Assembly: GCF_010685995.1 (NCBI RefSeq)
Contig: NZ_JAAGWK010000026.1
Location: 1 to 64,000, forward strand
Length of the DNA stretch: 64,000 bases
From: Goekera deserti
Lineage (GTDB): Bacteria; Actinomycetota; Actinomycetes; Mycobacteriales; Geodermatophilaceae
Reading direction: 5' to 3'
Shown here: piece after piece, positions 16,127 to 18,412 of the stretch
How the letters are laid out: each line of letters begins with the position of its first letter
Numbering within the stretch: position 1 is the first letter of the stretch
Translations under genes and position numbers: made by a program
Notes under the pieces: model-generated
What the model was told of the DNA's origin: nothing
The model's input: the letters and a program-made list of their open reading frames with translations, nothing else
Database searches by the model: none

Positions 16127-18412
16127 GTGGACCTGATCACCAACGCGACCGTCGCTGACGACACCGTGGCCGCTCTGCGCGAGGTGCTGCGGGCCGGGAC
16201 GGTGCGCAGCGTCTTCCAGCCCATCGTGCACCTGGACAGCGGCACCGTGGTGGCCTACGAGGCGCTGGCCCGCGGACCGGAGGGCCCGCTGCGCGCCCCG
16301 GACGTGCTGTTCGCCGCCGCCCGCGCCGGGGACTGCCTGGCCGAGCTGGACGAGGCCTGCCGGGCGGCGGCGTTCCGCGGTGCGGTCGCCGCGGGCCTGC
16401 TGGCGCCGCTGACCGTGTTCGTCAACGTCGAGCCCGAGGTGCTGGACGCCGCCCCGCTGTCGGACCTGCTGGCCATCGCCGAGACCGCCCCCCGCGACCT
16501 GCGCGTGGTCATGGAGATCACCGAGCGGGCGCTGGCCGCCCGCCCGGCGGAGCTGCTGCGCACCGTGGAGCGGGTGCGCGAGCTCGGCTGGGGCATCGCC
16601 CTGGACGACGTCGGCGCCGACTCGCTGTCCCTGGCGTTCATGCCGCTGCTGCGCCCCGACGTCGTCAAGCTGGACCTGCGGCTGGTGCAGGACCGCCCCG
16701 GCCCGGCGATCGCCGAGATCATGAACGCCGTCAACGCGCACGCCGAGCGCAGCGGTGCGGTGGTGCTCGCCGAGGGCATCGAGACCGAGGAGCACCTCGC
16801 CGTGGCCCGGGCCCTGGGCGCGACACTCGGGCAGGGGTGGCTGTTCGGCCGGCCCGCCGAGGGTGCCTCCAGCGTGTTCGGCGTCGGCGAGCTGGTGCTG
16901 CCGGCGCTGCGCGACACCGGCAGCACGGCCAGCACCTCCCCGTTCGCCTGCCTGCCCGCCGGCACCGCACTGCGCACCTCACCCAAGGCCCTGCTGATCG
17001 AGCTGAGCAAGCAGCTCGAGCGCGAGGCTGCCCGGGTCGGCGAGACGTGCGTGGTGGCCTCCACGTTCCAGGACCAGCGCTACTTCACCGAGCCGACCGA
17101 GCGTCGCTACACCGCGCTGGCCGAGGCGGTCGGTTTCGTCTGCGCACTGGGCGAGGGCCTGGGCGACGAGCCGGCGCCCGGCGTACGCGGTGCGTCGCTG
17201 GCCCCGGACGACCCGGCCCTGGGCGAGTGGGACGTCGTCGTCCTGGGCCCGCACTTCAGTGCGGCGCTGCTGGCCCGCGATCTGGGCGACGACGGCCCGG
17301 ACGCCGAGCGTCGCTTCGAGTTCGCGCTCACCTACCACCGGCACACCGTGGTGGCGGCCGCCTCCGCGCTGCTGTCCCGGGTCGTGCCCCGCCCGGCCCG
17401 GCCGGCGCCGGGGACGTCGGCCCCGGCCACCGCGGCGGGTGAGCGGCGGGCCACCACCGCCCCGCGCGGCCTGCCCACCCCGGAGCCGGGCAGCGCTGCC
17501 GACAGCGTGCTGCACCGGGCGCTGGCCGCCACGACCAGCGGCGTGACCATCGCCGACGTCACCCAGCCGCAGCAGCCACTGGTGTACGTCAACCACGCCT
17601 TCGAGGTGCTCTCGGGCTACCGCGCCGACGAGCTGCTGGGGCGCAACTGCCGCTTCCTGCAGGGCCCGGAGACCGACCGTGCTGCCATCGCCCGGATGGG
17701 CATCGCCGTCGCCACCGGGCAGGAGATCCGGGAGACGCTGCTCAACCACCGAGGGGCGTCCCGGGAGGCGTGGTGGAACGAGGTGTACCTGGCACCGGTC
17801 ACCGACCACGACGGCACGGTGCTGCAGTACATCGGCGTCCAGCACGACGTCTCCGACCGGATGGCCGCCGAGCGCGCGCTCATCGGCGAGCGGGACCGGG
17901 CGCAGAGCTACCTCGCGCAGATCGAGAAGCTCGCCTACACCGACCCGCTGACCGGCCTGGCGAACCGGAGGCGGCTGGAGGAGCAGATCGAGGTCGCCCT
18001 CTGGGACGCCCGGGTGGCGGACACCTCGGTCGCCGTGCTGTTCGTCGACCTGGACGGGTTCAAGCCGGTCAACGACGCGCTCGGGCATGCCGCCGGCGAC
18101 GAGCTGCTGGTGCGCACCGCCCAGCGGCTGCGCGCCCGGCTGCGCCGCGGCGACCTGCTGGCCCGGCTCGGCGGCGACGAGTTCCTCATCGCCCTGCCGG
18201 CGCTCAGCCGGCACGTCGGTCAGCTCGAGGCGCAGGTGGTGGCCCAGGACCTGGCCGGGGCCATCGCCCAGCCGGTGGTGGTGCACGGCACCGAGGTGCG
18301 CGTCACCGCCAGCATCGGGATCAGCATCTCCCCCGACGACGGCGACACCGTCGGTGAGCTGCTGCACGCCGCCGACCTGCGGATGTACACCCGCAAGCAC
18401 GCGCTGCGCTGA
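16127..18412 (+). CDS. EAL-DICT-LOV-GGDEF c-di-GMP signalling protein
   Basis: A predicted bifunctional cyclic-di-GMP enzyme of about 761 residues, cytoplasmic. Order: EAL phosphodiesterase domain (about 10-255; the motif EALAR begins at residue 45), a DICT-type sensory domain (about 285-430), a PAS domain of LOV type (about 465-575), then a GGDEF cyclase domain (about 600-760; intact GGDEF at 682-686). The LOV domain has the flavin motif GRNCRFLQG with the photoactive Cys at 508, plus [16 protein letters not shown] and IGVQHDV, matching all the usual flavin contacts. Blue light should thus control synthesis or breakdown of c-di-GMP. I chose GTG 16127; the start is not certain. It is divergent from pheS. 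Confidence 0.85.

Follow-up and report, generated by a model that had tools for sequence, protein, structure and literature searches.

How blue light might set the balance between synthesis and breakdown of c-di-GMP within a single polypeptide is the question raised by an open reading frame at positions 16127–18412 on the forward strand of the window, the whole 64,000-nucleotide stretch of Goekera deserti DNA analysed here. The frame is complete and open throughout from a GTG start and encodes 761 residues, with the N-terminus lying at GTG 16127 or possibly at a neighbouring codon. A Pfam profile search of the protein identified an EAL domain (aa 16–243, E = 1e-38), a DICT domain (PF10069; aa 285–385, E = 9e-9, 35.7 bits, cut-off 23.8), a PAS_9/LOV domain (aa 479–577, E = 2e-13) and a GGDEF domain (aa 603–759, E = 3e-43), all exceeding their cut-offs and in the order that an earlier note had read from the DNA. 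The DICT segment scanned by itself scored 39.9 bits against the gathering score of 23.8. Together with wide conservation, the four domains rule out a chance reading frame. The AlphaFold2 model of the whole protein, computed from a 39-sequence alignment, has a mean pLDDT of 86, a disordered region at residues 424–455 and a single unbroken helix at residues 576–604 between LOV and GGDEF; its EAL and GGDEF folds match the solved structures of PdeA, YfiN/TpbB and related chains. Translation placed EALAR at residues 45–49, Cys508 within NCRFLQG and GGDEF at residues 682–686, exactly as the earlier note had them, and its view that the catalytic and photochemical residues are intact was borne out by an alignment of a 40-sequence family.

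The LOV domain (aa 466–573; 17522–17845, forward strand, as are all features described here) matches Pfam PAS_9 and the light-activated cyclase MsLadC (PDB 8c05; E = 1e-44). The residue predicted to form the flavin adduct, Cys508 (codon 17648–17650), on whose conservation the earlier proposal had been staked, is Cys in all 34 LOV-bearing homologues of the family. Asn507, Arg509, Gln512, Asn551 and Gln572 are likewise invariant in the 34 rows, and Asn540 is kept in all but one. The domain thus has the Cys of GxNCRFLQ, the flavin-binding Asn pair and the signalling Gln (C508, N540, N551 and Q572), from which we infer that it binds flavin; a broken LOV domain or an absent Cys is ruled out. Responses to redox also occur among LOV and other flavin PAS domains, and the domain could in vivo sense redox or flavin supply instead of light. 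We regard this as quite improbable, since the Cys that forms the adduct and the Gln that signals are both retained in 34/34 sequences, as would be expected under selection for photochemistry. Another LOV domain with an intact GRNCRFLQ motif occurs in the G. deserti genome (G000:C58:228641–229042) within an 841-aa frame.

The GGDEF domain (aa 603–759; 17933–18403) carries the sequence features of a diguanylate cyclase, namely the GGDEF motif (18170–18184), DPLT and an RRGD I-site (aa 673–676; 18143–18154) whose Arg673 and Asp676 are conserved in 33 of the 33 GGDEF-bearing rows, and cyclase activity is presumed from them. It is joined to LOV by a coiled-coil linker (aa 574–608; 17846–17950), which was measured as in the LadC work, from the conserved Asp of D(I/V)(T/S) to the Leu of DxLT (PMC10396304), here from the D of DVS to the L of DPLT. 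This linker is exactly 35 residues long, the long LadC class, both here and in 27/27 distinct homologues of the same clade (the long clade), and exactly 21 residues long in a paralogous clade. LadC linkers fall into these two classes, with light activation of ~15-fold for 21 residues and >10,000-fold for 35 (PMC10396304). The alignment to MsLadC runs across the linker with zero gaps. Residues Glu552 and Arg578 are the equivalents of MsLadC Glu96 and position 122, where an Arg and its possible bridge to Glu96 have been noted (PMC12805367); the pair is Glu with Arg or Lys in every LOV-GGDEF copy except L103 (E/Q).

The protein therefore shares with MsLadC the LOV–coil–GGDEF order, the 35-residue linker, the photochemical residues, DxLT, GGDEF, RxxD and the E96/Arg122 equivalents. 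It differs from MsLadC in having an EAL-DICT half ahead of LOV and in showing no clear counterpart of the D44–R174 cage salt bridge, the D44 equivalent being Arg499, which varies in the family. Two of the three LadC search motifs for LOV match loosely, namely FEVLSGY (Ser for Thr) and a second one of 12 residues. With these motif deviations and the added EAL-DICT half, the protein looks LadC-like in mechanism, judging from its sequence, and not like a strict LadC. A Mesorhizobium LOV-GGDEF protein is repressed by light (PMC9098866), which raises the alternative that the same architecture works with the opposite sign and that blue light represses the cyclase and lowers c-di-GMP. This appears unlikely, since light activates each of the four characterised LadCs that have a linker of 35 or 21 residues (PMC10396304).

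At the other end of the protein, the EAL domain (16172–16855) aligns with PdeA (3s83) with a Z score of 24.6 in a structure comparison of the predicted model. Its catalytic and metal-binding set (E45, N100, E130, D160/D161, K181, E216, E219 and Q236) is invariant in the 40-sequence family, the counts being 39–40 of 40 because a single truncated row is gapped over E45–R49. Loop 6 (16604–16621), which the earlier reader had passed over, is atypical. Here it reads DDVGAD in place of DDFGTGYSS, whereas the class I motif is DFG(T/A)GYSS (PMC2994820), and DDVGAD or DDVGAE is found across nearly the whole family. By sequence, the domain keeps the EAL catalytic set but is not classed as a class I EAL phosphodiesterase, and the atypical loop 6 leaves phosphodiesterase activity likely rather than certain.

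The DICT domain (model aa 272–417; 16940–17377) was modelled by itself (segment 16910–17386) with a pLDDT of 94 and adopts a predicted TrmB/PLD-like fold (Z about 10–11). Structures similar to the model include the sugar-binding domain of TrmB, an archaeal regulator (2f5t; Z = 10.9, 117 residues, 3.0 Å), and PLD-superfamily domains (Z about 9–10), with a best Foldseek E value of 3e-4; the TrmB and PLD matches are nearly tied and the fold by itself indicates no function. No solved structure related to DICT by sequence was found. Invariant polar residues, numbered from the start of the DICT segment at aa 262, include E37, Q54, R66, D101, W107, H115 and R144. We tentatively suggest from the model that DICT may be a small-molecule sensor, and the TrmB/PLD-like fold is a possible clue to the ligands that DICT domains bind. 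A predicted role of DICT in light response is cited in a passage of PMC8612252. The idea that DICT adds a second input agrees with the present analysis, in which it is likely a separate input. DICT is also paired with a c-di-GMP phosphodiesterase domain in Microcystis, but there the phosphodiesterase is HD-GYP and not EAL, DICT is N-terminal and no light domain is present (PMC7063779). A stand-alone 229-aa DICT frame (Pfam E = 8e-7) lies on the reverse strand of contig 5 of the G. deserti genome (L124:1279–1968), close to a frame of the two-component receiver type.

DICT and LOV are connected by a disordered linker (aa 424–455; 17396–17491; pLDDT <50), and the span between the two domains ranges from 46 to 63 residues among homologues. 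With a pN/pS of about 0.45–1.1 the linker is weakly constrained. Set against the fixed length of the LOV-GGDEF linker, these properties make the coiled coil the most likely route by which light acts on GGDEF. The earlier observation that LOV sits next to the cyclase thus holds, with a fixed-length coiled coil between them, and the proposal that light switches net activity is refined to an effect that is probably mainly on the cyclase half.

Homologues about 60–69% identical to the protein are found in Geodermatophilus, Blastococcus, Modestobacter and Klenkia, and also in Motilibacter and Cellulomonas. By sequence, then, the family is conserved among Geodermatophilaceae, and scattered members occur in other Actinomycetota. 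A strong match is present in 21 of 41 related genomes sampled, prevalence being drawn from two 41-genome samples. The gene occupies the same location in Geodermatophilus, Blastococcus and a Modestobacter, with pheS-pheT on one side and an rRNA methyltransferase-rplT cluster on the other. This synteny, together with the lack of any match to the gene in plasmid records, rules out recent mobile acquisition in the core lineage. In Geodermatophilus pulveris (L016), the EAL start is out of frame with the remainder, through either a sequencing error or a broken copy.

Comparison of the homologues revealed uneven retention of the two halves, with GGDEF decayed or deleted about four times and LOV lost twice. 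Two lineages are without LOV and have a degraded GGDEF motif, L021/L027 (GPGRF and DGTRF) and L107 (GGHEF); since L021 and L027 are found beside pheS like the intact gene, they are the same gene after loss. In L105 and L106, LOV is intact and the GGDEF motif is degraded (GRDAF and TRDSF), while four Modestobacter-like copies (L018, L111, L112 and L113) have GGDEF deleted but still carry LOV with the greater part of the coil. This GGDEF-less clade has Gln at position 578, which counts as one evolutionary event. All of these copies have intact EAL residues, as do the stand-alone EAL-DICT proteins found in Actinomycetota (L108, L109, L117 and L119–L121), which are without LOV or GGDEF, unlike the Goekera protein, and whose EAL-DICT core is 47–60% identical to it and has the DDVGA loop 6. 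Since EAL stays intact through the losses of LOV and GGDEF, EAL-DICT is the part that stays constant and the light-cyclase half the one that can be dispensed with, and the phosphodiesterase is likely the core of the family. The loss or degradation of LOV and/or GGDEF in several relatives could mean that the protein is a decaying fusion whose C-terminal half has no real function in G. deserti. We consider this very improbable, as every residue tested is intact here and LOV and GGDEF show a pN/pS of about 0.2–0.45 in related intact copies, indicative of purifying selection.

We favour, with a probability of about 0.5, a model in which a DICT-modulated phosphodiesterase is joined to a blue-light-activated, long-linker LadC-type cyclase, forming a soluble switch of c-di-GMP turnover with two functional halves. 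The domains, residues, conservation, linker lengths and decay pattern are read from the sequences, and to these the model adds flavin binding, the activities, dimerisation, the sign of the light effect and coupling. The EAL-DICT half would be a c-di-GMP phosphodiesterase tuned by a ligand or partner of DICT, linked by the disordered 32-residue tether to a LOV-GGDEF half acting as a blue-light-activated diguanylate cyclase. Light would form the flavin–Cys508 adduct, Q572 and the E552–R578 pair would carry this change into the coiled coil of 35 residues, and the coil would shift register so that the two GGDEF domains of a dimer make c-di-GMP, with the RxxD I-site limiting the product. The protein would be a net c-di-GMP sink in the dark and move toward net synthesis in blue light. 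This model is supported because the residues that the two enzymes and the photocycle require are all there and conserved, because the 35- and 21-residue linkers match the light-activated LadC classes, because the GGDEF motif is degraded where LOV is lost while EAL remains intact, and because R578 is altered throughout the GGDEF-less clade. That light acts mainly on the cyclase half is probable given the disordered, variable DICT-LOV connection and the constant EAL-DICT core. Counting against the model, LOV-GGDEF pieces of LOV-GGDEF-EAL proteins show no light-regulated synthesis (PMC10396304), and the MsLadC cage salt bridge has no obvious counterpart.

The main doubt about this model comes from the four GGDEF-less Modestobacter copies and the two copies with degenerate GGDEF, in which LOV is intact and may therefore also act elsewhere, for example on EAL. 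Light might then mainly control the EAL phosphodiesterase, with GGDEF making little c-di-GMP and acting instead as an allosteric or dimerisation module that binds GTP. SL2 of Synechococcus elongatus, which also has LOV, GGDEF and EAL in one protein, provides a precedent, as its EAL carries the reported blue-light activity (PMC8846402), and the invariance of EAL through the repeated decay or deletion of GGDEF points the same way. The order in SL2, however, is LOV-GGDEF-EAL, whereas here EAL is N-terminal and separated from LOV by DICT and the disordered tether, through which direct mechanical coupling is difficult to picture. Most copies moreover have an intact GGDEF and I-site, the LOV-GGDEF linker is fixed in length, and the E552–R578 pair is altered where GGDEF was deleted (one clade). 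We therefore view control mainly of EAL as doubtful, and the four GGDEF-less copies constitute a natural test of LOV control over EAL.

The G. deserti genome also encodes a paralogue (L002; G000:C2:77404–79587) that is 46% identical, has the same four domains and a 21-residue linker, and lies ~59 kb downstream of the gene, outside the window. Relatives of this paralogue are present in genomes of genus g7. In trees, the LOV-GGDEF halves of the long- and short-linker clades cluster together against the sampled outgroups, with support of 100/97 and of 89/83 when the linker is removed. This clustering disfavours two independent fusions of EAL-DICT with LOV-GGDEF, and on these sequences favours a single fusion followed by duplication, with the linker altered by exactly two heptads. 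Certain stand-alone EAL-DICT proteins, however, have long branches in the EAL-DICT tree and are placed close to the long clade or within it; given this placement and a thin outgroup sample of actinobacterial LOV-GGDEF proteins, the trees are compatible with either gain or loss. A shared origin of the 35-residue linker with that of MsLadC is unsupported, as MsLadC falls outside the long clade on a long branch. More speculatively, light may flip the sign of c-di-GMP turnover by setting a light-gated cyclase against a phosphodiesterase gated by a ligand of the TrmB-like DICT across a floppy tether, with duplication having retuned the response through a difference of exactly two heptads in the coil (35 versus 21 residues), and with one genome carrying the two forms ~59 kb apart; we hold this combined reading to be conceivable, though short of probable.

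About 18% of bacterial LOV proteins bear GGDEF or GGDEF plus EAL (PMC4844311), and light-linked c-di-GMP proteins, including LOV-GGDEF-EAL, are already well known. A search of the openly accessible literature found no description of the EAL-DICT-LOV-GGDEF architecture, and no report, within the same scope, of two linker classes in one family or of the repeated loss pattern; the arrangement and the retention of EAL alongside repeated loss of the light-cyclase half thus appear undescribed. If the favoured model is right, the protein is a natural light-controlled toggle that combines synthesis and breakdown in one chain with separate inputs. The 35- and 21-residue coils and the relatives without LOV or GGDEF would form a natural experiment on how linker length affects the gain of a light-regulated cyclase, bearing also on communication between LOV and EAL. 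Many Geodermatophilaceae come from sunlit rock and desert soil, and the model, if right, would suggest a blue-light response in their c-di-GMP control. The 4.8-Mb G. deserti genome itself gave 49 matches and encodes many GGDEF/EAL proteins, so c-di-GMP signalling in this organism is extensive.
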